Source: Bacillota bacterium (GTDB lineage: Bacteria; Bacillota; UBA4882; UBA8346). From it: DNA of 59,836 bases. Positions 18,199-52,766 of the stretch are shown in pieces. The stretch's first letter is position 1; each line of letters opens with the position of its first letter. The stretch lies in NCBI GenBank assembly GCA_029776205.1, contig JAKOTQ010000102.1, forward strand, positions 1-59,836. The letters are read 5' to 3'. Below the pieces are notes generated by a model, which made no database searches, was not told the origin of the DNA, and worked only from the letters and a program-made list of their open reading frames with translations. The translations under genes and the position numbers were made by a program.

Positions 18199-19185
18199 AT
18201 GAAAGCGGGTGTAATCCGGTTATTGGTGAATAATTGGGTGAATCCGCTTTTGTGGATGGTCGTCCTGCTTATCGTAGCAGGCAGTCCGGTTCAAGCGGAG
18301 GCACCGTTTATGGTGGAGATCCCGGATGAGGTCGTTGTTTCCGGTTCCCGGTTCGGACTGAGCGATTTAGGAAAGATCACCGGAGGCACGGAGGCAGATC
18401 GTAAATTACTGGAATCCATCTCTTTTGGCACGCCTCCGGCTCCGGGTCAGACTAGGGTGTTTGAGCGGAAGTATTTGCAGTTGATTGTGAGTGGGTACCG
18501 TTTTCAGCAAATTCCCGAGCTGAAAATGGGAGAGCGGGTTACTGTTCGCACAGCGGCCGTCCGTATTTCTGGACCCCAGCTGCAGGCGGCGATTGACCGA
18601 TTGATCGCCAAAGGAAAACCCGGTATTGTCGAACGCTGGGTTGAGCTGCGGAATGTGCCGTCGAACATCTGGCTTGCTCCGGGAAATTGGGATGTTCAAG
18701 CAGCCCCGGTGGGAGATCTCCCATTGGTAGGCAGTGCTGTTTTTAAAGTAATTATTACGAATGGGTCGGAGACGAAGACGCTTCATATCAGTGGGCGAAT
18801 TCGCGCAAAAGCTTTGGTATACCGTTCGAAACGCTTATTGCCTCGCCATACTCTTTTGAATGAGGATGAATTTGAACAAATAACCATGGAGCTTCGCACC
18901 GGCAAGGAATTTATCGGTGAATTGCCGAATTATTATCGAAATCTGACGGTGATCCGGGAAGGAGATATTCTTTTAGGGCACCAGATCGAGGAAGCGCCGT
19001 TGGTAATGAAGGATCAACCGGTGATCATGGTTGTACGGCATGAAAATTTCGAAATACGGATCATGGGAACGGCATGTGCAGACGGTTGGATGGGGGATGC
19101 GATCAAGATTATTAATACATCCAGTAAAAAGATAGTTACCGGACGGGTTATCGATAAAGATACCGTGGAGGTGATTGTTCAATGA
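18199..19185 (+). CDS. flgA: P-ring assembly chaperone FlgA
   Basis: The 328-residue exported protein has a signal sequence (about residues 13-34, ending V-Q-A-E-A) and a C-terminal SAF/FlgA domain. Visible marks are L-L-P-R-H-T-L-L-N-E-D, R-E-G-D-I-L-L-G-H-Q-I and the closing I-K-I-I-N-T-S-S-K-K-I-V-T-G-R-V. FlgA works in the periplasm to help FlgI assemble into the P ring. Its presence, with flgH and flgI, shows that the flagellum crosses an outer membrane. The end overlaps flgH by four bases. An N-terminal region of about 100 residues is longer than in the shortest FlgA proteins. Confidence 0.88.
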   Translation: MKAGVIRLLVNNWVNPLLWMVVLLIVAGSPVQAEAPFMVEIPDEVVVSGSRFGLSDLGKITGGTEADRKLLESISFGTPPAPGQTRVFERKYLQLIVSGYRFQQIPELKMGERVTVRTAAVRISGPQLQAAIDRLIAKGKPGIVERWVELRNVPSNIWLAPGNWDVQAAPVGDLPLVGSAVFKVIITNGSETKTLHISGRIRAKALVYRSKRLLPRHTLLNEDEFEQITMELRTGKEFIGELPNYYRNLTVIREGDILLGHQIEEAPLVMKDQPVIMVVRHENFEIRIMGTACADGWMGDAIKIINTSSKKIVTGRVIDKDTVEVIVQ

Positions 19186-19775
19186 AAAAAATTATTAAAC
19201 TTTCTGTAATCATTGGGTTGGTTTTATCTTTACTTTTGATAAGCGGAGCTGCTTTCGGTGATTCATTATGGACCGAAAACAGCAATTCATTATATAAGAG
19301 TCAACCCCGGTCTTTTAAAGTGGGGGACCTGATCACTATTATCATCGTCGAACAGGCAACGGCCAGTCAGAAAGCATCATCTTCCAATGGAAAGGATGGC
19401 TCACTGTCGGCAGGCCCGGGAACCGGGGTGCTGAAGGATGTCATACCCGAATTGAAGGGTGACTGGAAATCGAAGTATGAAGGGACGGGTAGTACTACAC
19501 GGGGTGGAAGTCTCACGGCCAAGCTTACGGTGACCATCAGTGAAATCACTCCGGAAGGGCTTTTGCTTGTTGAAGGAAAGCAAACCATTAAAGTCAATAA
19601 TGAAAATCAGGTGCTGACAGTTAAGGGTAAAATTCGGCCGGAAGATGTTTCTCAGTCCAATACGGTATATTCCACCTATGTTGCGGACGCAGTTATTGAA
19701 TATCAAGGCAAGGGAACTCTCGGGGATACCCAGAGACCGGGAATCCTGACCCGTATCTTTAACTGGATCTTCTAA
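19182..19775 (+). CDS. flgH: Flagellar L-ring protein FlgH, without lipobox cysteine
   Basis: A 197-residue protein with a signal peptide (residues 1-26). It has the FlgH core: F-K-V-G-D-L-I-T-I-I-I-V-E, an L-T-V-T-I-S-E-I block, G-K-Q-T-I-K-V-N-N-E, and V-A-D-A-V-I-E-Y-Q-G-K-G near the end. FlgH makes the L ring in the outer membrane. Most FlgH proteins are lipoproteins; here the signal region, I-S-G-A-A-F-G-D-S, contains no cysteine, and none occurs in the rest of the protein. It is therefore probably cut by signal peptidase I. Start overlaps flgA (ATGA). Confidence 0.92.
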   Translation: MKKIIKLSVIIGLVLSLLLISGAAFGDSLWTENSNSLYKSQPRSFKVGDLITIIIVEQATASQKASSSNGKDGSLSAGPGTGVLKDVIPELKGDWKSKYEGTGSTTRGGSLTAKLTVTISEITPEGLLLVEGKQTIKVNNENQVLTVKGKIRPEDVSQSNTVYSTYVADAVIEYQGKGTLGDTQRPGILTRIFNWIF

Positions 19776-19788
19776 GAAAGGGGAAGGA

Positions 19789-20901
19789 ATGATGAAACGT
19801 TGTCTGATCTTGAGTCTGGTTATCGCTTTATTGGTGGGATTGACCGGAGTCGAGGGTCTGGCGGAATCACCGCTGACGCGCGTTAAAGATATTGCCCGGC
19901 TTCAAGGAGTCCGCAACAACCAACTGAACGGTATGGGTTTGGTTGTGGGTTTAAACGGAACCGGGGATTCATCGAAGGCCAATATTCAATTGGTGGCAAA
20001 TGCTTTAGCCAAATGGGGTATTGAAGTCAATCAATACGACCTTAAAGTGAAAAATGTAGCGGCGGTTATTTTAACGGCCACTTTACCTCCATATAAACAT
20101 CGAGGAGATGCTATTGATGTTCAGGTTTCCTCGCTGGGGGATGCCAAAAGCCTTCAAGGTGGGATCCTTTTGCAAACGCCGCTTTCCGGAGCTGACGGTA
20201 GAGTATATGCTGTGGCCCAAGGTCCGGTTTACATCGGTGGATATACTGCCGGAGGTAGGGGTTCATCCGTTCAGAAAAATGTGACCACGGTAGGGATTAT
20301 ACCTTCCGGCGCGATTGTTGAGCGGGAAGTGCCGATGCAATTTGAAACTGACGGTAAATTGCGCTGGGTACTGAATAATCCGGACTTTACCACCGCTTCT
20401 AGGTTGGCACGAACCATTAATGAAAATATTGCAGAGGGCGCAGCCCGAGCGGTTGATATGGCTATGGTTGAAGTTTTGATTCCCCAGCAATTGAGCCATG
20501 ATCCCATTGCTTTAATTGCAGAAATTGAAGCATTACCGGTGACGCCCGATGGTGTGGCGAAAGTAGTGGTTAATGAACGCAATGGGACCGTAGTGATTGG
20601 GGAACGGGTCCGTATCGCTCCGGTGGCTGTCACTCATCGTAATATCACCGTGAAAGTCAATACGTCATCTCAGGTGTCTCAGCCTGCTCCTCTTTCCGGT
20701 GGCGAGACGGCTACTGTCAACGATACCAGGGTGGATGTGAAGGAAGAAGCCGGCCAGCTGGTGGAACTTCCTGCAGGAACCACCATCGGATCCATTGTTA
20801 AGGCTCTTAACGCCGTAGGGTCCACGCCGCAGGATATTATCGCGATATTGGTCGCCATCAAAGAAGCCGGCGCACTGTATGGAGTATTGGAGTTTATTTA
20901 A
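19789..20901 (+). CDS. flgI: Flagellar P-ring protein FlgI
   Basis: The 370-residue exported protein has a signal peptide ending near residue 25 and the FlgI core. Marks are R-V-K-D-I-A-R-L-Q-G-V-R-N-N-Q-L, G-L-V-V-G-L-N-G-T-G-D, and the C-terminal I-V-K-A-L-N-A-V-G-S-T-P-Q-D-I. FlgI polymerises around the rod in the peptidoglycan layer of diderm bacteria. The start may be the second ATG at 19792, which is better spaced from AAGGGGAAGG. The gene lies 13 bases after flgH. A repeat-bearing gap follows before the flgJ-type gene. Confidence 0.96.
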   Translation: MMKRCLILSLVIALLVGLTGVEGLAESPLTRVKDIARLQGVRNNQLNGMGLVVGLNGTGDSSKANIQLVANALAKWGIEVNQYDLKVKNVAAVILTATLPPYKHRGDAIDVQVSSLGDAKSLQGGILLQTPLSGADGRVYAVAQGPVYIGGYTAGGRGSSVQKNVTTVGIIPSGAIVEREVPMQFETDGKLRWVLNNPDFTTASRLARTINENIAEGAARAVDMAMVEVLIPQQLSHDPIALIAEIEALPVTPDGVAKVVVNERNGTVVIGERVRIAPVAVTHRNITVKVNTSSQVSQPAPLSGGETATVNDTRVDVKEEAGQLVELPAGTTIGSIVKALNAVGSTPQDIIAILVAIKEAGALYGVLEFI

Positions 20902-40755: not shown

Positions 40756-40834
40756 GCAGGAATAAAAAGGATTACTGTGGGATAAATAGAATAGTTTTTG
40801 TTTAAGTAATCATTCAAATGAAGGGATGATCGGA

Positions 40835-43800
40835 TTGCCGAAAGATACCATGATTGAGCGGGTGTTAGTGATTGGGCCAGGTCCATATCGGATCGGCCAG
40901 GGAATGGATGATGATTTTGCCGTCGCCGAAGCCTGCCGTACCTTCAAACAGGAAGGCTGTGAAGTAGTTGTTCTCCATAATCATCCAGCTTCTTTGAGTA
41001 CGGATGTAGAGTGGGTGGATCGGGTTTATATAGAGCCTCTGACCGTTGACAGGGTGCGGGAGGTTGTTACCCGGGAACAGCCGCAATTGCTGGTGACTGG
41101 GTATGGCGGCCTGTCGATGGGCGCGATCATGGAAACGGTTGGTATCGAAGGCGTTAAAACGGACATCCCTGCAAAGGTTTATCAGCTTACCCAGAACCGG
41201 GGGGCATTTCGGAAGTTGTTGGCCGGTGCAGGACTTGCCCCGGTGCCGGGCGTTACTGTAACCCGGGCCGATGAAGGAGCTTCGTTGGCCATGGATCTTA
41301 AATTTCCTTTGATGGTTCGTTCTTTTGCCTCACAAGGAGGACTTGGCAGTAGTGTGGTTTATAACCATGAGGAACTGGAAGAAGCGGTACAACAGGGGTT
41401 GAACTTGTCGCCGCTGAAGGAAGTGGTTCTCGAAAAAGCGCTGATCGGGTGGGATGCTATTGATTTGCAACTGCTTTGTGATACTTCAGGAGAAGTGGCT
41501 CTGGTTGCCCTGGGTGTCCAGATCGATCCGGTTGAAGTTCACCGGGGAAACAGTATGGCTTTCACTCCCTCCGGAGCATTACAATCCCGGTTTTCTGTCT
41601 GGCTGGATACAGTGAAGCCGTTGTTCCATGCATTATCTTATGCCGGACCTCTGCATTTGCGTCTGGCTTGTAACCCTGGCGGAAGTGAAATCTATATTTT
41701 AGATTTAAATCCCCGGCTGACGTTACAGCCGGCCTGGCGGTGGATGTTTCCTTGGCATCGGGTGACGGAGGCTTCGGCCAAGTTGGCGTTGGGATATGGT
41801 TTATCAGAGATTTTATCAACAATGGATGCAATCCCCCAGATTGATGATGAGGTTGCGGTGACACTACCGGTTTTTGATTTTGAGCGTTTTGGGGCAGAGG
41901 ATCGACTGGGTTCCGTCGTTCAGTCGACTGGAACAGCGCTGACGGTAGGTACTAATCTTCGGGAAGCGCTCCAAAAAGCTATTCGGGCTTTGGGAGGCGA
42001 ACCCTTTGGTTTTGGGGCAGACCCTTACAGTGCCAAACTTGAACAAGTTTCAGACCGGGAAATCAGGGGAAAACTGGTGAATCCCAACAGTCAACGGCTG
42101 TTTTATATTCGTCAGGCGTTCAAGGCTGGAATGTCTCCCGATGATTTGCAATCCCAAACCAAAATGAATCGGGTTGTTCTGTCGGAATTGTCGGAGCTGC
42201 ATCGACTGGAGAAAGAATTGACCACTTATGCGCTTTACAATCTTCCGTCGGATGTTTTATTGAAGGCGAAAAGAGCCGGATATTCGGACCGGCAATTAGC
42301 ATATTTGTTGCGGGTTAACGAAGCTGATGTCCGTAAAACCCGCCAAAAGTACGGGATCGAACCCCAAAGGTTAAACGTGACTGTAGCCAGGAGTTTAGGA
42401 AAATGGTTTACCACAACTTATGCGGTAAAGGAGGCGGTTCCTGCTTCGGCGTCGGAGACACCCGGTGTTTTATTGGTTGGTTCCGGAGTGAACCGTGTGT
42501 TATATGGAAGCGAATATGATTGGAATTTGATTCGGGCGGCCCGTGCCCTCCGGGAAGCCGGATACCGGGTTATCCTACTAACTCCAGTTTCTCCGGCGGT
42601 TTTAGGTATCGGCGATTATTTTGACCGGATTTACATGGATGCGGTGACTTTGGAGGATGTTTTGAACATCGCCGAGTTGGAGTCGGTAGAGGGCGTAATC
42701 CTTCAATACGGCGGAGAAGCGGCTTTAGCGTTGGGTGATGCATTAAGCCAGTGTGGGGTTGGGGTCTTCGGAACTGACAAGGAAGATCTGCAAAGTTTGG
42801 CTAAAATGAGACTCCGGAATGAAGGCGGTTTCCAAGCCAGGCAGATCAGCAGTGAGTCCCATTGGGATCAACTGTTGAATGAGCTAGGCAGGTCAACTGT
42901 TCATTCGGTGTTGGCGGAGCCGTTGGTATCGGAAGCCATTGGCGTATCGGTTGGGTCCGTCGGTGATGGGAAAAACTGCGTCATTGCCGGTATCGCCGAG
43001 CAGATTGAGGAGGCGGGTATTCATCCGGGCGACAGTGCATTTTCATGCCCGCCCTATAGTCTCGACCATGAGGTCATCGATCGTATGAAGCGCTTTGTAG
43101 CAACGATGGTTCAGCGTTTGGCAATTCGAGGGTGGGTTGAATGGCGGTTTGCGGTAAAACAAGATCGGATATACCTCATTTCGGCAGAGGCATTGGCCAA
43201 TCCGATGATGCTCTTCTTCAGCAGAGCTGCCGGGGTGGACTGGGCGGCGGTAGCGGCCAAGGGGTTAGTTGGCCGGAGTCTTGGTGACTGGCAGCCGGTG
43301 AGTTCCGAGATTCCGTGGACTGCCGTTAAAGAAGCTGTATTCTCCTTCAAACATTTTCCGGGGATGGATCCGGTACTGGGCACTGAAAAGCATTCTACCG
43401 GTATGGTGATGGGGATTGATTCCGATTTTGGAACAGCCTTCATCCGTTCGCAACTGGCTGCCGGTGAAAGGATCCCTATGACTGGACGAGTTTATTTAAG
43501 TATCCGCAGTCAAGATCTCCGGCCTTTTATCAGTGTTGCCGAACAATTGGCTGATCTCGGGTTTGTATTGGCGGCCTCGGAAGAGATAGCGTCTCTTTTG
43601 AAGCGAAACGGGATCGATTGTGAATCCGTTTATAATATTGGTGAAGGACGTCCCCATATTTTGGATCGAATGAAAAATGGCGAAATCCAATGGTTTATTC
43701 ACTTGCCGTCGGAATCCCGCAGTGAATCCCATGAGCGGCTCATGCGATGCACTGCCATTGCCCAAGGTATTCCGGTAATTACCACCCTTTCAGGGGCTTT

Positions 43801-43882
43801 GGCGGCTGTTAACGGTGTGCGTCAATATATTCGGGACGGACTGAAAACGCAACCGTCAGAACGAAAATTGCTGAACTCATAA
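40835..43882 (+). CDS. CarB-like protein, probable pseudo-carbamoyl-phosphate synthase
   Basis: The 1015-residue protein follows the CarB domain order: two pre-ATP-grasp/ATP-grasp halves, the oligomerisation helices (L-E-K-E-L-T-T-Y-A and similar) and a C-terminal MGS-like domain (G-E-G-R-P-H-I-L-D-R-M-K-N-G-E-I). It opens like CarB, M-P-K-D-T-M-I-E-R-V-L-V-I-G, if read from the TTG at 40835, nine bases after GAAGGG. Active-site residues are changed. In half one the loop R-P-S-F-T-M-G-G is R-S-F-A-S-Q-G-G and the N-P-R motif reads L-D-L-N-P-R-L-T-L-Q-P. In half two about 45 residues containing the glycine loop are missing and E-V-N-P-R is replaced by S-A-E-A-L. It is unlikely to make carbamoyl phosphate. 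No carA is nearby. It lies 79 bases after mazG and 37 before an importer operon. Confidence 0.85.
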   Translation: MPKDTMIERVLVIGPGPYRIGQGMDDDFAVAEACRTFKQEGCEVVVLHNHPASLSTDVEWVDRVYIEPLTVDRVREVVTREQPQLLVTGYGGLSMGAIMETVGIEGVKTDIPAKVYQLTQNRGAFRKLLAGAGLAPVPGVTVTRADEGASLAMDLKFPLMVRSFASQGGLGSSVVYNHEELEEAVQQGLNLSPLKEVVLEKALIGWDAIDLQLLCDTSGEVALVALGVQIDPVEVHRGNSMAFTPSGALQSRFSVWLDTVKPLFHALSYAGPLHLRLACNPGGSEIYILDLNPRLTLQPAWRWMFPWHRVTEASAKLALGYGLSEILSTMDAIPQIDDEVAVTLPVFDFERFGAEDRLGSVVQSTGTALTVGTNLREALQKAIRALGGEPFGFGADPYSAKLEQVSDREIRGKLVNPNSQRLFYIRQAFKAGMSPDDLQSQTKMNRVVLSELSELHRLEKELTTYALYNLPSDVLLKAKRAGYSDRQLAYLLRVNEADVRKTRQKYGIEPQRLNVTVARSLGKWFTTTYAVKEAVPASASETPGVLLVGSGVNRVLYGSEYDWNLIRAARALREAGYRVILLTPVSPAVLGIGDYFDRIYMDAVTLEDVLNIAELESVEGVILQYGGEAALALGDALSQCGVGVFGTDKEDLQSLAKMRLRNEGGFQARQISSESHWDQLLNELGRSTVHSVLAEPLVSEAIGVSVGSVGDGKNCVIAGIAEQIEEAGIHPGDSAFSCPPYSLDHEVIDRMKRFVATMVQRLAIRGWVEWRFAVKQDRIYLISAEALANPMMLFFSRAAGVDWAAVAAKGLVGRSLGDWQPVSSEIPWTAVKEAVFSFKHFPGMDPVLGTEKHSTGMVMGIDSDFGTAFIRSQLAAGERIPMTGRVYLSIRSQDLRPFISVAEQLADLGFVLAASEEIASLLKRNGIDCESVYNIGEGRPHILDRMKNGEIQWFIHLPSESRSESHERLMRCTAIAQGIPVITTLSGALAAVNGVRQYIRDGLKTQPSERKLLNS

Positions 43883-43919: not shown

Positions 43920-44876
43920 ATGCGTCGGCTTATTGTGTTGGGACTGATTATCGGGCTGTTGTTGGCGGGAAGCCTTCAGCTTGGAGCGGAAAATGCTTCA
44001 GTGAGGGTATTAGCTTTGTCGGGCAATACCGGTTTGGCTATGGTCCGGATGATGGAACAGCCGGTGATTGATGGAGTGAATTATCAATTCCAGGTCTATA
44101 AAAGTCCTGATCAGCTCATCGGGAAATTGGTTACCGGTGAAGCGGATATTGCCGCTTTGCCTTCAAATACGGCAGCGATTTTATACAATCGGGGAACCGG
44201 GGTTCAAATATCTTCGATCATTGGCTGGGGCGTACTCTATGTGACGGGACAGGATCGAAACATTAAGCAATGGACAGATTTAAAGGGGAAAGAAGTATTT
44301 ATTGGCGGTAAAGGAGCTGTTCCGGATCTGTTATTTCAATATCTTTGCCAAAAGAACGGATTGAAACCGGATGCTGATATTCGCATCTCCTATATCGCCA
44401 GCCCGGCTGAACTCGCCCAACTGGTGATTGCGGGGAAAGCGCCGTTGGCGGTGATTCCGGAACCGTGGGTTACCGAGGTCCTGGAACGTTCGCCTCAGAC
44501 CCGGGTATTGCTGGATTTCCAAAAAGAGTGGGGGAGAATCGAAAAAACCCAACCCCTATATCCTCAAACCTGTGTGGTGGTTCGAAAGCAATTTGCCAAG
44601 GAATACCCGGAACGGGTGAAGGCTTTTTCCCGGGAGTTGGCCCAGAGTATCATTTGGTTAGAACGAAACCCGGTGAAAGGAGGAGTTTTGGCGGAGAAGT
44701 ATGTATCCCTTTCTCCGGTGTCAGTGGAAAAAGGATTGGAACGGTGTAATCTGAAGTATAGCGATGCCTATGCTGTACGGAAGGAAGTTCAAATGTTTTT
44801 AAGCCGTTTATATGAGGTGATGCCTCAAGCGGTTGGAGGAAAGTTGCCTGATGAAGATTTCTACTACCGTCCGTAA
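43920..44876 (+). CDS. SsuA/NMT1-like ABC importer substrate-binding protein
   Basis: A 318-residue exported protein with a signal peptide (residues 1-23) and no lipobox cysteine, so it should be soluble in the periplasm. The type II binding fold of the nitrate/sulfonate/thiamine-precursor family is shown by V-T-G-E-A-D-I-A-A-L-P-S-N near residue 75, the W-T-D-L-K-G-K-E-V-F-I-G-G segment and P-E-P-W-V-T-E. The ligand could be a sulfonate, a pyrimidine such as HMP, or similar. It is followed by overlapping permease and ATPase genes and preceded 37 bases upstream by the CarB-like gene. Confidence 0.88.
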   Translation: MRRLIVLGLIIGLLLAGSLQLGAENASVRVLALSGNTGLAMVRMMEQPVIDGVNYQFQVYKSPDQLIGKLVTGEADIAALPSNTAAILYNRGTGVQISSIIGWGVLYVTGQDRNIKQWTDLKGKEVFIGGKGAVPDLLFQYLCQKNGLKPDADIRISYIASPAELAQLVIAGKAPLAVIPEPWVTEVLERSPQTRVLLDFQKEWGRIEKTQPLYPQTCVVVRKQFAKEYPERVKAFSRELAQSIIWLERNPVKGGVLAEKYVSLSPVSVEKGLERCNLKYSDAYAVRKEVQMFLSRLYEVMPQAVGGKLPDEDFYYRP

Positions 44877-45624
44877 CGTGTGGTTGGGTATCGCCGCATT
44901 GGTTGGAGCAACGGTCATTTGGTATATGGCTGCCTTGAAAGTGGGTTTGCCGGTGATTTTGCCGACGCCCTCTGCGGTTTTTCTCCAATTGACGGCGATG
45001 GTCCGCAAGACGGTTTTTTGGCATCATGTGGGAGCCACTTTGCTAAGGGGGCTTGCTGGTTTTCTGATTTCATTGGGAGTTGGACTGGTGGTAGGGTTGG
45101 CGGCTGGTATCTTTCCGACGTTGGAGGCGTTGCTACGGCCGATCATCGTGGTGCTTAGAAGTACTCCGTCCATGGCTTTTATTGTTCTGGCGCTCGTTTG
45201 GTTCAAAGGGGACTGGGTGACGATCTTCGTTATCTTTTTAGTGGTTTTTCCGATGATCGCCCAAAATGTCATCGAAGGGATTCGGAATATCGATCGGGAA
45301 CTTTTGGAGATGGTGACGGTCTTTCGAGTTCGTAAACTGCGGCGCCTGACTGCTCTTTATCTACCGTCGGTGGCCTCGTATCTGGCGGCAGGAATTGCGG
45401 CCGGATTGGGAATCACCTGGAAAGTTCTGATTGCAGCGGAAGTGTTGGCTTACCCGCGAATGGGAATTGGGACCCAAATGGATACGGCAAGGACCTATTT
45501 GGAAACAGATAAAGTGTTTGCTTGGAGTTTAGTGGTTATCGGGATCGGTTTGTGTTTCGATTATGTACTAGGGGCCATCCGACGCAAACAGGATGAGATG
45601 CGGAAAGGGAGCCGGAATGTATAA
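44851..45624 (+). CDS. SsuC/TauC-like ABC importer permease
   Basis: The 257-residue membrane protein has about six helices and the E-A-A-like loop of binding-protein-dependent permeases (G-L-G-I-T-W-K-V-L-I-A-A-E-V-L near residue 190). It resembles nitrate/sulfonate/thiamine-precursor permeases, with P-T-P-S-A-V-F and T-L-L-R-G-L-A-G-F. The ATG at 44851 has GGAGGA upstream and overlaps the binding-protein gene by 26 bases; an earlier in-frame TTG at 44833 is less likely. It forms the membrane channel of this importer as a homodimer. Confidence 0.9.
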   Translation: MKISTTVRNVWLGIAALVGATVIWYMAALKVGLPVILPTPSAVFLQLTAMVRKTVFWHHVGATLLRGLAGFLISLGVGLVVGLAAGIFPTLEALLRPIIVVLRSTPSMAFIVLALVWFKGDWVTIFVIFLVVFPMIAQNVIEGIRNIDRELLEMVTVFRVRKLRRLTALYLPSVASYLAAGIAAGLGITWKVLIAAEVLAYPRMGIGTQMDTARTYLETDKVFAWSLVVIGIGLCFDYVLGAIRRKQDEMRKGSRNV

Positions 45625-46312
45625 ACTGGAAAGCATTTCAAAGAACTATGGGACTTTGGTGGTCTTGGATAATTTTTCATTGAGTATTCCTAAGGACCGG
45701 ATTACGGTGCTGGTTGGCCCTTCCGGATGCGGTAAGACAACCCTTTTAAACATATTGGCCGGATTGGTCCGGCCGGACAGAGGGCAGGTCATTAGCGAAC
45801 AGGTCAGTTATCTCTTTCAGGAACCGCGGCTTCTTCCCTGGTTGAATGTTCGTGAGAATATCGGGCTGCCTCTTCGGGATATTTTTGAAAAGAAGCGGGT
45901 AGACGAGGAAGTTCGGCGTTATCTGCGCGAGATTGGGTTGGAGGGTTATGCTGATTTTTATCCCGGGCAGTTGAGTGGAGGGTTGAAACAACGAGTAGCT
46001 ATGGCCCGGGCTTTTGCCTTTCCTGCGCCGATCCTGTTGATGGATGAACCGTTCAAATCATTGGATTTAAAAATACGATACCGGTTGATGGAGGATTTTA
46101 TCCGGTTATGGCTTTCGGAACCCCGGACAGTGGTTGCGGTGACCCATGATCTCCATGAAGCGGTTGTTTTGGGAGATCGGGTGATTCTCCTCGATGAAAA
46201 GCCAGCCCGTATCAAACAATGCTATGAGATTGCCGTTCCCCGGGATGTACGGCATGAAAGTGGAGAGATCCGGCGTTTGGAGAGAGAACTGCTGGAATTG
46301 ATGTTAGCATAG
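45617..46312 (+). CDS. SsuB/TauB-like ABC importer ATPase
   Basis: A 231-residue ATPase with Walker A G-P-S-G-C-G-K-T-T, the Q-loop in Y-L-F-Q-E-P-R-L-L-P-W typical of the nitrate/sulfonate subfamily, signature L-S-G-G-L-K-Q-R, Walker B I-L-L-M-D-E-P-F-K-S and H-loop V-T-H-D-L. The ATG at 45617 follows AAAGGGAG and overlaps the permease gene by eight bases. It drives the importer of the two preceding genes and ends the long 38392-46312 run, closed by a terminator. Confidence 0.93.
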   Translation: MYKLESISKNYGTLVVLDNFSLSIPKDRITVLVGPSGCGKTTLLNILAGLVRPDRGQVISEQVSYLFQEPRLLPWLNVRENIGLPLRDIFEKKRVDEEVRRYLREIGLEGYADFYPGQLSGGLKQRVAMARAFAFPAPILLMDEPFKSLDLKIRYRLMEDFIRLWLSEPRTVVAVTHDLHEAVVLGDRVILLDEKPARIKQCYEIAVPRDVRHESGEIRRLERELLELMLA

Positions 46313-46333: not shown

Positions 46334-46361
46334 AGAGGCGTCGATTGGCGCCTCTTTTTTA
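46334..46361 (+). terminator. Intrinsic terminator after the importer operon
   Basis: A 7-base AGAGGCG/CGCCTCT stem (46334-46340 with 46349-46355) followed by a T run. It is the first terminator after the one at 38284. Confidence 0.9.
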
Positions 46362-46488: not shown

Positions 46489-48330
46489 ATGTGCGGTATT
46501 CTGGGTTGGATTGACCATCGGTCGGACTTAAGGGAACAAAAACCGGTATTGGAAAGGATGTGTCAGCAATTAGCTGTACGGGGCCCGGATGCGGAAGGAT
46601 ATTGGATAACAACGGGAGCGGCCATTGGCCATCGACGCCTGACGGTGGTGGATCCTGAAGGCGGAAAGCAGCCAATGATCCGGGAACATGCCGGCCGAAC
46701 TTATGTTTTAACCTATAACGGAGAACTTTACAATACGGCTGAGATCCGGGAGGAACTGGAGAAACTGGGGCATCGCTTTTTATCCTATTCTGATACCGAA
46801 GTTTTGCTTGTGGCTTTCATCGAATGGGGAAAGGATTGCCTTAAATACCTCAATGGAATTTTTGCCTTTGGCGTTTGGGATGATGGGGAGCATAAGTTGT
46901 TTCTCGCCAGAGACCGGATGGGCGTAAAACCTCTTTTTTATACGGAACTGAACGGAACGTTAATGTTCGCGTCGGAGATTAAAGCGCTTCTTGCCAATGA
47001 CATGGTGAAGCCCGAGGTTGATGCGGTGGGTCTTGCTGAGATCTTCGGTTTGGGCCCGGCCCGTACGCCTGGCAGCGGCGTTTTTCGGGGGATTCGGGAA
47101 TTGCCGCCAGGATGTTGGCTGGAATTTTGTAACGGGCAAAGCCGAATTGGCCGGTATTGGCAACTGGAAAGCAAACCCCATGAAGATGACTTTCAAACCA
47201 CAGTCGAACGGGTTCGGTATTTGGTGGTTGATGCTGTGGAGCGGCAGTTGGTTTCCGATGTACCGATCGGTTCCTTTTTATCCGGAGGGTTGGATTCCAG
47301 TATTATTGCAGCAATAGCGGCCAGACGGCTGTTGGAAGATAAAGAGGTTCGGTTGCCGACCTTTTCTTTGGATTATCAAGGGAATGCTGAATATTTTAAA
47401 AGTAGTCTCTTCCAACCCAATGCGGATCGGCCGTGGGTTGAACAGATGGTTCAGGCAATCGGGAGCGAGTCCCATTGGGTTGAGCTGGGCCAGGAAGAAT
47501 TGGCCGATGCCCTTGAACCGGCGGTTTTAGCCCGAGATGTACCGGGTATGGCGGATATTGATTCATCGTTATGGTTATTCTGCCGAAGAGTGAAGGAACA
47601 CGTTACGGTTGCTTTATCTGGAGAATGTGCCGACGAGGTTTTCGGGGGGTATCCCTGGTTTCATCATCCGGAGCGGGTCAATGGTAATTCTTTTCCCTGG
47701 TCAACGGCATATGTGATGTGGGAAAAAATATTCCCCAAAAATGTAAAGAAAAAATTGAAACTATCCGATTATGTAAACGAGAGATATATGGAGGCACTGA
47801 AAAGCGTCCCGCGGCTTCCTGGTGAATCCCCGGTGGAAGCGCGAAGAAGGGAACTCTTCTATCTTAATCTGAATTGGTTCATGGTGATGTTACTTGAACG
47901 TAAAGATCGGATGAGTATGGCGAGCGGCTTGGAAGTCCGGGTGCCGTTCTGCGATCACCGGCTGGTGGAATATGTATGGAATATTCCTTGGGAATGGAAA
48001 TGTTACGGCGGCCGTGAAAAAGGGATCCTGCGCCAGGCGGTTCAGGACCTTCTTCCGGAAGAAGTGTTGTTGCGAAAAAAGAGCCCATATCCCAAAACCC
48101 ATCATCCGGAGTATCTGGCTCTGGTCACGGAACGATGGCTGGACATTGCGGCTGATCCTCAATCGCCGGTACGGGAATTAATCGATGTGAATGCCGTCTT
48201 TGAATGGGTCCGTCGGCAAGGGGTTGATAAGCCCTGGTTCGGCCAATTGATGGCCGGCCCGCAGTTGTTGGCATATTTGATACAAATTGATTCATGGTTG
48301 AAACATTATCGGGTCAATATTGTAATTTAA
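46489..48330 (+). CDS. asnB: Asparagine synthase (glutamine-hydrolysing)
   Basis: The 613-residue enzyme starts M-C-G-I-L-G-W, so Cys2 is the glutaminase nucleophile after Met removal. The N-terminal class II glutaminase domain has R-G-P-D-A-E-G and Y-N-G-E-L-Y-N. The synthetase domain has the pyrophosphate loop S-G-G-L-D-S-S near residue 265 and S-G-E-C-A-D-E-V-F-G-G-Y-P-W-F. It makes asparagine from aspartate, glutamine and ATP. It is monocistronic, between the importer terminator and the pilus promoter. The length and inserts match the longer AsnB/AsnO group of Firmicutes. Confidence 0.95.
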   Translation: MCGILGWIDHRSDLREQKPVLERMCQQLAVRGPDAEGYWITTGAAIGHRRLTVVDPEGGKQPMIREHAGRTYVLTYNGELYNTAEIREELEKLGHRFLSYSDTEVLLVAFIEWGKDCLKYLNGIFAFGVWDDGEHKLFLARDRMGVKPLFYTELNGTLMFASEIKALLANDMVKPEVDAVGLAEIFGLGPARTPGSGVFRGIRELPPGCWLEFCNGQSRIGRYWQLESKPHEDDFQTTVERVRYLVVDAVERQLVSDVPIGSFLSGGLDSSIIAAIAARRLLEDKEVRLPTFSLDYQGNAEYFKSSLFQPNADRPWVEQMVQAIGSESHWVELGQEELADALEPAVLARDVPGMADIDSSLWLFCRRVKEHVTVALSGECADEVFGGYPWFHHPERVNGNSFPWSTAYVMWEKIFPKNVKKKLKLSDYVNERYMEALKSVPRLPGESPVEARRRELFYLNLNWFMVMLLERKDRMSMASGLEVRVPFCDHRLVEYVWNIPWEWKCYGGREKGILRQAVQDLLPEEVLLRKKSPYPKTHHPEYLALVTERWLDIAADPQSPVRELIDVNAVFEWVRRQGVDKPWFGQLMAGPQLLAYLIQIDSWLKHYRVNIVI

Positions 48331-48712
48331 CGTAATTTATCGAAAAAAGCATTAAAAAATCCGATTTTACCTACCGGCACAAGATGTGGGAAAAAGATTG
48401 GAAAATTTAACTAGATATTGAATGTTGGCATTATTTTGTAAAAAAAGATGCCGCAAAAAATGTAGAAAACCTGCGAAGGCTCATTCCAATAACGGTTAAA
48501 ATTGTTGACATTTGGAAATACGTAGACTAAAATTAAAGAAAAATCTGGGTTTTAGAAGGAAGTTTATTACTTTTTAGCGAATATCTTAGTCACTATTGGT
48601 AATGAGATCTTTTTTTATCAGAACTTACCTATAAATTTTTTGTTTCGTTATATTAAAATTTTTGTGAACCCATAGAAGTGCATATCAAAATCAAACAACA
48701 GGTGGTATTAAC
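48331..48712 (+). other. AT-rich gap with pilus operon leader
   Basis: No gene is visible in these 382 bases. They contain the pilB promoter (48505-48533), a leader of about 170 bases with several T runs, and the region between asnB and that promoter. I looked for c-di-GMP riboswitch signatures, which often precede pilus genes, and did not find one. No convincing terminator for asnB was found either. Confidence 0.5.
48505..48533 (+). promoter_or_regulatory. Sigma-A-type promoter for the type IV pilus operon
   Basis: A perfect -35 TTGACA (48505-48510) and TAAAAT (48528-48533) with a 17-base spacer, 179 bases before the pilB start. Confidence 0.75.
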
Positions 48713-50425
48713 TTGGCAGCACAAAACAGACAACGGCTCGGAGATATTTTGGTCCAGACCGGGATTATTACTCCGGAACAATTGGCTGAAGCTTTGGACG
48801 AACAAAAACATTCCGGAGAACGCTTGGGGAATGTCTTGGTCAAAAAGGGCTATTTAACGGAACAACGCCTAATCGAGGTGCTTGAATTTCAACTGGGTAT
48901 TCCTCATGTGGTTATAGCTAAACGGCATATCTCTCCTGATGTAGTCGCATTGGTTCCTGAAACACTAGCCAGAAAATACCGGATTTTTCCGGTGGAGAGA
49001 AACGGGGATCGACTTGTCCTCGGAATGGTTGACCCGACGAATATATTAGCTATCGATGACCTGAGACTGTCGTTGAAAATGGAAATTCAACCGGTCATCG
49101 TTACTGAAGAAGATTTAAATCATACCTTTAATCAATATTATGGCATTAAAGAGTCGGTTCGGGATGTCTTTAAGGATATGGACGTGGAGATTGAAGAGAC
49201 AAAATCCGATGAACCGTCAATGGATGCCATTGAGTCCATGGTTGACGACGCTCCTATTGTTCGCCTGGTTAATCTCATCATCACCCAGGCGGTTAAGGAG
49301 CGGGCCAGTGATATTCATTTGGAGCCGACTGAAAAAGAATTGGTTGTACGTTATCGGGTTGACGGTCGCTTGCGTCAGATGATGACGACGCCGAAAAATA
49401 CCCAGCCGGCGATTATTTCCAGGATTAAGATTATCTCGGGAATGAATATTGCTGAAAAGCGGATTCCCCAGGACGGACGTATACAAATGAGGGTAGATGG
49501 GGTTCCCATCGATTTGCGGGTTTCATCCGTTCCCACAGTCTTTGGCGAAAAGATCGTTATGCGGATTCTTTTTAAAAACAATGTTCTGGTCAAAATGGAC
49601 AAGCTTGGATTTTTGCCTGAGACTCTGGAAAAATTTAGATCGGTATATCGTAATCCACACGGTATTATTTTGGTGACAGGCCCTACCGGAAGCGGTAAGA
49701 CAACTACTTTGAGTGCAGTGTTGAATGAGTTGAATTCCCCGGAAGAAAATATCATGACAGTTGAAGATCCGGTGGAATATCAGATTCCCGGTATTAACCA
49801 GGTGCAGGTTAATGTAAAAGCCGGTTTGACATTTGCGTCGGCATTGCGGGCATTTTTGCGGCAGGACCCTGATATTATCATGGTTGGTGAGATCCGGGAT
49901 AAAGAGACCGCTCAAATTGCAACTCAAGCAGCTTTGACAGGACATTTGGTGCTGTCAACCTTGCATACTAATGACGCTCCGAGTTCTATTACTCGTTTGA
50001 TCGACATGGACATTGAGCCCTTTTTAGTCGCTTCTACCGTGATCGGGGTATTGGCTCAACGGTTGGTGAGAGCCATTTGCGAAGGGTGTAAAGAAGCGTA
50101 TCAAATTCAACCTAATGATGTTTATTATTCGATTGTCCGTGAATGGTTAAGGGAATTGCCCGAAGAACGATTGATCTTTTATAAAGGTAAGGGCTGTCGC
50201 CAGTGTAATGGGACAGGCTATGCCAAACGGGTGGCCCTTCATGAGGTTCTAGTTGTCGATAAGGACATTCGTTATTTGATTGGGAAAAATGTGCCGTCTA
50301 CGGAGTTGAAAGAAGCGGCTATGAAATCAGGGATGATAACTTTATTTAAGGATGGTTTATTAAAGGCTTTGGAAGGCAAAACAACTCTTGAAGAAGTTAT
50401 TCGGGTGGCTTACACCAGAGAATAG
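48713..50425 (+). CDS. pilB: Type IV pilus extension ATPase PilB
   Basis: The 570-residue protein has an N-terminal T2SSE_N domain (R-L-G-D-I-L-V-Q-T-G-I-I) and the GspE/PilB ATPase with Walker A G-P-T-G-S-G-K-T near residue 325, the Asp box in D-P-V-E-Y-Q-I-P, Walker B D-I-I-M-V-G-E-I-R-D and H-T-N-D. A zinc-binding C-x-x-C pair sits near residues 459-462 and 495-498. PilB powers pilus extension. The start is TTG at 48713, seven bases after CAGGTGG. It is the first gene of a continuous operon to the window end. Confidence 0.95.
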   Translation: MAAQNRQRLGDILVQTGIITPEQLAEALDEQKHSGERLGNVLVKKGYLTEQRLIEVLEFQLGIPHVVIAKRHISPDVVALVPETLARKYRIFPVERNGDRLVLGMVDPTNILAIDDLRLSLKMEIQPVIVTEEDLNHTFNQYYGIKESVRDVFKDMDVEIEETKSDEPSMDAIESMVDDAPIVRLVNLIITQAVKERASDIHLEPTEKELVVRYRVDGRLRQMMTTPKNTQPAIISRIKIISGMNIAEKRIPQDGRIQMRVDGVPIDLRVSSVPTVFGEKIVMRILFKNNVLVKMDKLGFLPETLEKFRSVYRNPHGIILVTGPTGSGKTTTLSAVLNELNSPEENIMTVEDPVEYQIPGINQVQVNVKAGLTFASALRAFLRQDPDIIMVGEIRDKETAQIATQAALTGHLVLSTLHTNDAPSSITRLIDMDIEPFLVASTVIGVLAQRLVRAICEGCKEAYQIQPNDVYYSIVREWLRELPEERLIFYKGKGCRQCNGTGYAKRVALHEVLVVDKDIRYLIGKNVPSTELKEAAMKSGMITLFKDGLLKALEGKTTLEEVIRVAYTRE

Positions 50426-50439
50426 AAGGAGTTGAGTTT

Positions 50440-51510
50440 ATGCAGATTGCTGACTTTTTAAAAGTGGCTATGGAAAGAAATGCATCCGATCTGCATTTAA
50501 CTGTCGGACGCCCTCCGATGTTGAGGATTTATGGGGAATTGCTGCCGATTGAAGGGGTGGAGGCATTAACGTCAGCCACAACCCAGGAATTGCTCGTCCC
50601 TCTTTTGGACGATAACCGGAAAAAGGCATTACTTACTACAGGCCAGGTGGACTTCTCTTACGGAGTGCGCGGCTTAGGACGCTTTCGTGTGAATATCTTT
50701 CGGCAACGGGGAGCACTTTCTGCAGCTATGCGTACCATTCCCAGCAGTATTCCTTCCATTGATATGTTGGGGTTGCCGGAAGTGGTGAAAGGGTTTGCCG
50801 AGAAGTCGAGAGGGCTCATTTTGATAACCGGCCCGACAGGAAGTGGAAAGTCGACGACGTTGGCGGCCATTATCGATTTGATCAATACCAACCGCAATTG
50901 CCATATTATTACGCTGGAAGATCCGATTGAATATTTGCATATGCACAAAAAATCCATTATTAATCAGCGGGAAGTCGGGACGGACACTGATTCCTTTGCC
51001 TCAGGGCTCCGGGCGGCGCTACGGGAAGATCCGGATGTAATTTTAGTGGGCGAGATGCGGGATTTTGAAACGATTCAGATTGCGATTACGGCCGCAGAAA
51101 CGGGACATCTGGTTTTTGCTACGTTGCATACAAACGATACGGTCCAAACGGTGGACCGGATCATTGACGTTTTCCCGCCAAACCAGCAAGCCCAGATCAG
51201 AACGCAATTATCTTTGGTAATACAGGCGGTTGTTTCACAGCAGTTGTTGCCCCGCTTAGATCAGCAAGGACGGGTCATTGCTACGGAAGTTATGATTGCC
51301 AATTCGGCTATCCGGAGTTTGATACGCGAAGGGAAAACCCATCAAATCAGGACATCGATTCAGACTGGAGCTAAATTTGGTATGCATACGCTGGATTCGG
51401 ATTTAAGAAGATTGTATGAACAGCGGATTGTCAGTTTCTCGGAAGCGTTGATGCGTGCTGTGGATCAGGAAGAATTCAGAAAATACGGGGAAGAATCCCG
51501 GCATGGATAA
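50440..51510 (+). CDS. pilT: Type IV pilus retraction ATPase PilT
   Basis: A 356-residue ATPase with Walker A G-P-T-G-S-G-K-S-T near residue 132, Asp box E-D-P-I-E-Y, Walker B D-V-I-L-V-G-E-M-R-D, the H-A-T-L-H-T-N-D box and the retraction-specific motif near residue 295 (A-I-R-S-L-I-R-E-G-K-T-H-Q-I). PilT depolymerises the pilus and powers twitching or DNA uptake. It lies 14 bases after pilB. Its presence indicates that the pili retract. Confidence 0.95.
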   Translation: MQIADFLKVAMERNASDLHLTVGRPPMLRIYGELLPIEGVEALTSATTQELLVPLLDDNRKKALLTTGQVDFSYGVRGLGRFRVNIFRQRGALSAAMRTIPSSIPSIDMLGLPEVVKGFAEKSRGLILITGPTGSGKSTTLAAIIDLINTNRNCHIITLEDPIEYLHMHKKSIINQREVGTDTDSFASGLRAALREDPDVILVGEMRDFETIQIAITAAETGHLVFATLHTNDTVQTVDRIIDVFPPNQQAQIRTQLSLVIQAVVSQQLLPRLDQQGRVIATEVMIANSAIRSLIREGKTHQIRTSIQTGAKFGMHTLDSDLRRLYEQRIVSFSEALMRAVDQEEFRKYGEESRHG

Positions 51511-51524
51511 CCGGAGGGATATAA

Positions 51525-52766
51525 ATGGCTAGTTTCAAGTATGTGGTGAAGGATCGGTCTGGGAAGACCTCTCAGGGATTCATCGAAGCGGCCAACATGG
51601 GCGAGGCTGCTGCCAAACTCAGACAGGATAATTACTTTATTGTACAGCTCGGTCCGGCAGACAAGGAATCAGCCGTATTGACCAAGAGTGCTAAGCAGCA
51701 AACCCAGGAAAATTCGGTCCGGGGGAAAGTGAATCTAAAAGACAAAATCTTTTTTACGAAACAGTTTTATGTTATGCTCCGGGCTGGTATGGGGATGATC
51801 GTATGCCTTAACAACTTATACGAACAGACAGAAAATCTCTATTTACGTCATATTATTACGGAAATTCGAAAAGATGTGGAAAGCGGTGTTCCTCTTAGTA
51901 CTGCACTAGCCAAGTTTCCAAAAGTTTTTAACGGGATGTTTGTAAACATGATTGAGGCTGGCGAAGCCAGCGGAAAATTGGATTTGAGTTTACAGCGTCT
52001 CAATGATTTTTTCGAACGGGAATATAATCTGAAAAAAAAGATTATCGGAGCTTTGATTTATCCGGCGATCATCTGTGTCGTGGCCGTTGCTGTGGTGATT
52101 ATCTTACTGACATTTGTGGTTCCGACTTTTGTCAATATTTTCGCTGATTCCGGTGCCCAACTTCCGGGTATCACTCGAGCGTTGGTGATGGTCAGCGATA
52201 TTCTGAGAAATTATTGGTATCTGTTGATGGTGTTTGTGATTGGCCTTGGATTGGTTTATAAAGTCATGGGCAATAATCCAAAAGGCAGGGAGAAGTTGGA
52301 TCAGTTTTGGATTAATTTCCCCCAGGTCGGGGATTTAATCGAAAAGGTGGTGATCTCCAGGTTTGCCCGGACTTTGGCGACCTTATTGGACAGCGGAGTT
52401 CCGTTGCTCCAAAGCTTGGAAATTGTCCAGAGGGCGGTAAGTAATGCGGTAATCGCCCGGGGAATTCGTCATGCAGCAACCAGTGTCAATCAGGGGACAG
52501 GTTTGGCACGGCCGCTATTGGAAAGCGGCGTGTTTCCGGTGATGGTTCCACAAATGGTTGCCATTGGCGAAGACACCGGTGATATAAATCATATGCTGGA
52601 GGAAGTTGCTGATTATTATGATAAGGAGGTGAGTTATGCTTTAGAAAACCTGACCGCAATGTTCGAACCTTTGATCATTGTGGGTTTGGGCGGAGTGGTA
52701 GCGTTTATCGTCGCAGCTATCATGCTTCCCATGTTTGACATCTCAACAGGAGCAACTCTTCGATAA
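51525..52766 (+). CDS. pilC: Type IV pilus inner-membrane platform protein PilC
   Basis: The 413-residue protein has two GspF domains (about residues 70-195 and 275-395), each with a cytoplasmic helical bundle and membrane helices. Marks are F-T-K-Q-F-Y-V-M-L-R-A-G-M near residue 78 and I-S-R-F-A-R-T-L-A-T-L-L-D-S-G-V-P-L near residue 280, the typical repeat. It anchors pilus assembly in the cytoplasmic membrane between PilB/PilT and pilin. It is 14 bases after pilT. Confidence 0.95.
   Translation: MASFKYVVKDRSGKTSQGFIEAANMGEAAAKLRQDNYFIVQLGPADKESAVLTKSAKQQTQENSVRGKVNLKDKIFFTKQFYVMLRAGMGMIVCLNNLYEQTENLYLRHIITEIRKDVESGVPLSTALAKFPKVFNGMFVNMIEAGEASGKLDLSLQRLNDFFEREYNLKKKIIGALIYPAIICVVAVAVVIILLTFVVPTFVNIFADSGAQLPGITRALVMVSDILRNYWYLLMVFVIGLGLVYKVMGNNPKGREKLDQFWINFPQVGDLIEKVVISRFARTLATLLDSGVPLLQSLEIVQRAVSNAVIARGIRHAATSVNQGTGLARPLLESGVFPVMVPQMVAIGEDTGDINHMLEEVADYYDKEVSYALENLTAMFEPLIIVGLGGVVAFIVAAIMLPMFDISTGATLR

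Follow-up and report, generated by a model that had tools for sequence, protein, structure and literature searches.

Carbamoyl-phosphate synthase (CPSase) is a textbook case of allostery. To our knowledge, no study has treated its catalytic steps apart from its sensing domain. In the crystal structures of the large subunit from E. coli, CarB, E783, D791 and E892 are contacts to ornithine, and T974, N1015 and T1016 are contacts to the nucleotide. Residue T1042 contacts ornithine between the MGS and carbamoyl-phosphate domains of the E. coli enzyme, and T977 and K993 are nucleotide residues (PMC6245113). The dimer and the tetramer of E. coli CPSase are built by the regulatory and oligomerisation domains (PMC6245113).

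The genome analysed here (G000) encodes two intact CarB proteins, G000:C105, which belongs to the pyrimidine operon, and G000:C73, which stands alone. Its single carA lies in the pyrimidine operon with C105. A further protein, called CarB* here, is homologous to both and has the same layout, but is only ~30% identical to them overall; C105 and C73 are canonical copies with all catalytic residues intact. A sequence-only reading of this DNA had claimed that CarB* has no carA partner. This is the case, as carA is absent from beside CarB* at every CarB* locus examined and the one carA of the genome sits in the pyrimidine operon. The same reading had called for a check on an intact CarB elsewhere in the genome, and the two copies above are the answer. 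The C73 gene (L051:7329-10550; also L052, L055 and L057) encodes a catalytically intact CarB with no adjoining carA. A C73-type CarB is also present in G005, G007 and G009, with no convincing carA match anywhere in these genomes. C73-type CarB may share CarA or use ammonia.

The window, which is the whole stretch of 59,836 nucleotides that was analysed, carries the CarB* gene on its forward strand. The reading frame is open throughout 40835-43882 and its product has 1015 amino acids. A ribosome-binding site, GAAGGG, lies at 40820-40825, and the TTG start at 40835 is nine bases 3' of it. The alternative start is an in-frame ATG at 40826, which overlaps the ribosome-binding site. The protein has the two homologous synthase halves, the oligomerisation domain and the C-terminal MGS domain of CarB, in order. 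Pfam matches (CPSase_L_D1 in two stretches, CPSase_L_D2, CPSase_L_D3 and MGS) and phmmer together give the sequence pre-ATP-grasp, ATP-grasp, oligomerisation, second pre-ATP-grasp, a remnant of the C-terminal half, and MGS domain. E. coli CarB was matched by phmmer along the length of CarB*, the lobe of the C-terminal half excepted. The features are as follows; residues in brackets are those of E. coli CarB.

40835..43882, + strand: CarB* gene, putative pseudo-CPSase large subunit (reading frame, Pfam, phmmer, alignment to E. coli CarB, fold model)
40835..41194, + strand, borders approximate: first pre-ATP-grasp domain (Pfam CPSase_L_D1, alignment)
41195..41995, + strand, borders approximate: first ATP-grasp domain, damaged: R276 (Q285R), D290 (E299D), E215A and G241E; N301 and R303 kept
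41996..42454, + strand, borders approximate: oligomerisation domain with CarB*-specific invariants (Pfam CPSase_L_D3)
42218..42241, + strand: LTTYALYN motif of the oligomerisation domain; columns T478, Y479, A480, Y482 and N483 invariant in CarB*
42797..43462, + strand, borders approximate: second ATP-grasp domain, without its catalytic lobe and ligands (alignment, model)
43007..43033, + strand: E725 (E783) and D733 (D791) of the ornithine pocket, the same in 8/8 CarB*
43145..43195, + strand: former metal/ATP ligand strand pair, R771 (Q829), S783 (E841), E785 (N843) and L787 (R845), by alignment
43331..43333, + strand: E833 (E892) of the ornithine pocket, invariant among CarB* and replaced by Ala in the pyrimidine-type C105
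43463..43834, + strand: MGS-like allosteric domain, the most constrained part (Pfam, domain identities, dN/dS)
43781-43783, + strand: T983 (T1042) of the MGS domain, by alignment

An AlphaFold model made from three sequences reached a pLDDT of 40.8. With a nine-sequence alignment the pLDDT rose to 74.9, with a pTM of 0.78, and this model superposes on E. coli CarB structures with a TM score of 0.88 over the whole length. Residues 656-695, which are of low confidence in the model, mark the place of the deleted lobe. The complete CarB layout with its MGS-like domain, proposed earlier from the letters, is thus borne out by Pfam, phmmer and the model. The score against the curated family NF003671 is 635.3 bits (cut-off 599), and that against TIGR01369 is 593.9 bits (cut-off 1027).

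The catalytic residues were mapped on the true E. coli K-12 CarB (NC_000913). In the second ATP-grasp domain of the window's CarB*, 42 of 268 columns are missing, including R715 and the glycine loop residues G721 and G722, and all four ligands (Q829, E841, N843 and R845) are replaced. The comparison made earlier, which had put the loss at about 45 residues with the glycine loop and the E/N/R ligands and had described the first half as altered too, proved correct on this alignment. Judged by these positions, CarB* is without the residues needed for carbamoyl phosphate synthesis by the known mechanism.

Relatives of CarB* are present in eight of the ten genomes of the family, and in six of its seven genera (G000, G001, G002, G003, G004, G005, G006 and G008; several family genomes are fragmented or incomplete). 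G001 is a second species of the window's genus, and its orthologue is 75% identical, open and has the same neighbours. The two genomes that lack CarB*, G007 and G009, belong to one genus. A scaffold gap and a contig end interrupt the copies in G003 and G004; the other six members are full-length. A profile built from these six gave 1595-1746 bits for full-length CarB* and 1228 bits at most for the remaining CarB of 398 genomes from the phylum, among which this search found no CarB* outside the family. A scan of genome contigs with the window protein returned nothing but the orthologue of the congener and a single distant CarB, and a viral collection held nothing closer than a few distant CarB. 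The search for orthologues that the sequence-only reading had asked for therefore yielded relatives with a lost second site in eight genomes. The Q829/E841/N843/R845 set is complete in none of the eight members, and its ruin differs genus by genus; the 42-column deletion is confined to the window's genus.

The six full-length proteins form one clade (SH-aLRT 100), to which neither canonical type of the family belongs; its nearest neighbours in the trees are arginine-type CarB such as G040:C96. The branches of CarB* are long and the inner order of the clade is unsure. Compared with ten canonical CarB, invariants found only in CarB* are A480, Y482 and N483 of the LTTYALYN motif (0/10), and I949, F957, C988 and W1012 of the MGS domain. 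The sharing of these clade-specific invariants suggests a single origin, with the caveat of long branches.

In canonical CarB the ATP-grasp domains are the best conserved, and the oligomerisation and MGS domains the least. In every full-length CarB*, the MGS domain is better conserved than the first half. Between genera, C73-type CarB is 62-73% identical in the MGS domain and 85-89% in the first ATP-grasp domain, whereas CarB* is 44-57% identical in the MGS domain and 28-46% in the ATP-grasp domains. Between the window's species and its congener (G000/G001), the dN/dS of CarB* is 0.142 overall at a dS of 1.03, with 0.057 for the MGS domain, 0.092 for the oligomerisation domain and 0.204 for the first ATP-grasp domain. 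In the same pair of species, intact C73 CarB gives 0.040 overall, 0.060 for the MGS domain, 0.052 for the oligomerisation domain and 0.012 for the first ATP-grasp domain. The first ATP-grasp value is thus ~17 times higher in CarB* than in the intact enzyme, while the constraint on the MGS domain is about equal. The MGS domain of CarB* is held as tightly as in a working enzyme, and the first catalytic domain is under far looser constraint. The suggested role through the MGS domain is consistent with this inverted conservation. From the residues lost and the constraint kept, CarB* is very probably a functional pseudoenzyme that makes no carbamoyl phosphate.

To see what the second half retains, we counted positions that are invariant in seven ornithine-type CarB. 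The catalytic stretches of CarB* keep 1 of 33 (668-760) and 1 of 18 (801-860). Elsewhere, 8 of 18 (761-800), 12 of 27 (861-935) and 13 of 26 (MGS) are kept. Within the second half, the constrained stretches are those with the residues of the ornithine pocket. The four ornithine contacts E783, D791, E892 and T1042 are kept in all eight CarB* (hypergeometric P=0.006 against the base retention rate). Not one of the five nucleotide contacts T974, T977, K993, N1015 and T1016 is invariant across CarB*, and the window has S, I, N, H and L at these positions. Sensing of UMP or IMP through the MGS domain, which had been offered as an example of a new role, does not agree with a nucleotide site so eroded beside four invariant ornithine contacts. 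Every CarB sampled has E783 and D791, even the pyrimidine type, in which position 892 is Ala; this leaves E892 as the only diagnostic contact for ornithine. A gene for argF was detected in all ten family genomes, nine times above the curated cut-off; ornithine metabolism is therefore present in the family. On these residues, an amino acid of the ornithine type has an even chance of being the CarB* ligand.

Downstream of CarB*, the window carries the following features.

43920..44876, + strand: substrate-binding protein of an ABC importer, NMT1/SsuA-like
44851..45624, + strand: permease of the ABC importer
45617..46312, + strand: ATPase of the ABC importer
46334..46355, + strand: terminator-like hairpin with a T run, 3' of the importer genes (consensus match only)
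46489..48330, + strand: asnB, glutamine-dependent asparagine synthetase family (TIGR01536 523.7 bits, cut-off 267.1)

The hairpin between the importer and asnB suggests that asnB is a separate transcript in the window. The three importer genes lie 3' of CarB* in six of the eight genomes (G000, G001, G002, G003, G005 and G006), with two genes between in G005 and 650 bases in G006; G004 gave no importer match, and in G008 the importer and CarB* lie on separate contigs. The asnB gene follows beyond the importer in G000, G001, G002 and G005 and stands directly 3' of CarB* in G004 (5/8), although shared gene order within one family can reflect common descent. An AsnB orthologue, 57-62% identical between genera, occurs in all eight CarB* genomes and is missing from G007 and G009; this co-absence concerns one genus and hence one event. 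The importer binding protein is found in nine of the ten family genomes, G007 and G009 among them. It has only generic SsuA/NMT1-like matches, and its best solved relative is 3hn0, a 'nitrate transport protein'. Of the two neighbours named in the sequence-only reading, the importer holds across genera, while mazG is specific to the genus; AsnB is an additional neighbour. We rejected mazG as a CarB* partner, as it adjoins the gene (upstream) only in the window's genus. For RNA control such as a riboswitch near the operon, no Rfam family scored above threshold in five loci, one tRNA excepted.

Other genes were seen around these loci. In G005 (L045:5343-9105), CarB* is separated from the importer by a 1101-residue reading frame and a gene for a cupin-like protein. 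In G003 and G008, which are of one genus (L047 and L042), a response regulator, a sensor kinase and a periplasmic binding protein-like gene stand upstream on the same strand. In the window, asnB is followed by pilB, pilT and pilC (46489-52766), and the order asnB-pilB is kept in G002 and G006. At 19182-20901 we read the translations as FlgH and FlgI, the L- and P-ring flagellar proteins, which suggests an outer-membrane (diderm) Firmicute.

The reading that we prefer, at a probability of roughly 0.4, is that CarB* acts as a regulator, a pseudoenzyme with ornithine or a similar amino acid as its ligand, and has its partner perhaps in the importer/AsnB module. The large subunit of an arginine-type CPSase would have been duplicated, with catalysis lost and the sensor retained. 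Ornithine or a related arginine-pathway amino acid would bind CarB* where its second half meets the MGS domain. The ligand would change the shape or the assembly state of the protein, as in E. coli CPSase, and the signal would be passed on through the rebuilt oligomerisation and MGS surfaces. The receiver would most likely lie within the neighbouring nitrogen module, as the importer, AsnB or both. As a specific target, this module is a tentative and rather doubtful choice, favoured because of the gene order; hetero-assembly with canonical CPSase is favoured because of precedent. Just as doubtful is a free-standing ornithine switch with ~1000 residues of dead enzyme as its body, which would control nitrogen import or amidation instead of carbamoyl phosphate and in which the two ATP-grasp halves would have become a signalling scaffold.

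CarB* might instead be a regulatory pseudo-subunit of the intact CPSases, adding or removing ornithine control through oligomerisation/MGS contact. The two most constrained domains of CarB* are indeed those that assemble E. coli CPSase (PMC6245113), and the ornithine response that C105, with Ala at 892, lacks could come from CarB*. However, in the oligomerisation and MGS domains CarB* shares only 22-37% identity with the intact CarB from its own genome, these domains have their own invariants, and CarB* is never seen adjoining a canonical carB. Moreover, no one canonical type was found in all CarB* genomes, some of which are incomplete: the C73 type occurs in G000, G001, G002 and G005, and the C105 type in G000, G001, G002, G004 and G006. 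We regard this alternative as unlikely.

No more likely than that is a new enzyme, with an active first ATP-grasp domain (ATP-dependent activation of a carboxylate or bicarbonate) and the second half as scaffold. Q285, E299, N301 and R303 are intact in four of the eight members (G003, G004, G006 and G008), which makes a first-half ATPase possible there, and these four keep 60-78% of the canonical-invariant residues of the first half. Yet the same site is damaged by differing changes in G000/G001, G002 and G005. The raised dN/dS of the first ATP-grasp domain in the G000/G001 pair, and a first half less conserved than the MGS domain in all full-length members, also argue against a working enzyme.

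Slightly less probable again is a functional pseudoenzyme with another ligand or none, acting as a scaffold or in protein docking through its rebuilt MGS and oligomerisation surfaces. The invariants confined to CarB* (I949, F957, C988, W1012 and the LTTYALYN motif) would fit such surfaces. In human CPS1 the same domain is used for N-acetylglutamate, so the ligand can change (PMC4655335). Against this stands the retention of all four ornithine contacts while the rest of the second half erodes. A slowly decaying, functionless copy would account for the fast evolution, the long branches and the scattered loss of catalytic residues, but is highly improbable given a frame of ~1000 codons that is open in all full-length, unsplit members, a dN/dS of 0.142 at a dS of ~1.0 that shows no relaxed selection over the whole frame, MGS constraint equal to that in the intact enzyme, clade-specific invariants and retention in six of seven genera. 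With the open orthologue at 75% identity and degenerate relatives across these genera, the earlier view of CarB* as a conserved pseudoenzyme and not a decaying copy stands.

The open-access literature that we searched on CPSase pseudoenzymes, degenerate ATP-grasp CarB and orphan CarB reports no such clade. As far as found there, a pseudoenzyme clade derived from the CPSase large subunit is a variant without previous report. A small archaeal CPS-like ATP-grasp protein from pseudomurein clusters, OG0001014, was once called a CPS and has since been reassigned (PMC11915815). It stays apart from CarB throughout the trees of that study and is not a relative of CarB*. If binding of ornithine proves true, regulatory CarB* would be the first CPSase-large-subunit pseudoenzyme in the literature searched and a new kind of ornithine sensor. 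CarB* offers a natural experiment, with catalysis very probably removed and the sensor under the same selection as in the enzyme, and it sets the second-half residues of the ornithine pocket apart from those of the chemistry. Because the NF003671 cut-off is passed, annotation pipelines will label CarB* 'carbamoyl-phosphate synthase large subunit'.

With E. coli CarB (NF003671, TIGR01369), CarB* has in common the layout, the fold (TM 0.88), the ornithine pocket residues and the MGS domain. It differs in that the second-site residues are lost in every member, with the lobe deleted in the window's genus, that half of the members have a damaged first site, that the nucleotide site is eroded and that there is no carA partner. 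Human CPS1 is an ammonia-type CPSase in which an inactive glutaminase domain is kept, so that a catalytic domain is present without its activity. It is also the precedent for a changed ligand of the MGS domain, N-acetylglutamate (PMC4655335). However, human CPS1 has both ATP-grasp sites and does synthesise carbamoyl phosphate, whereas CarB*, as aligned here, is without the residues for that reaction.
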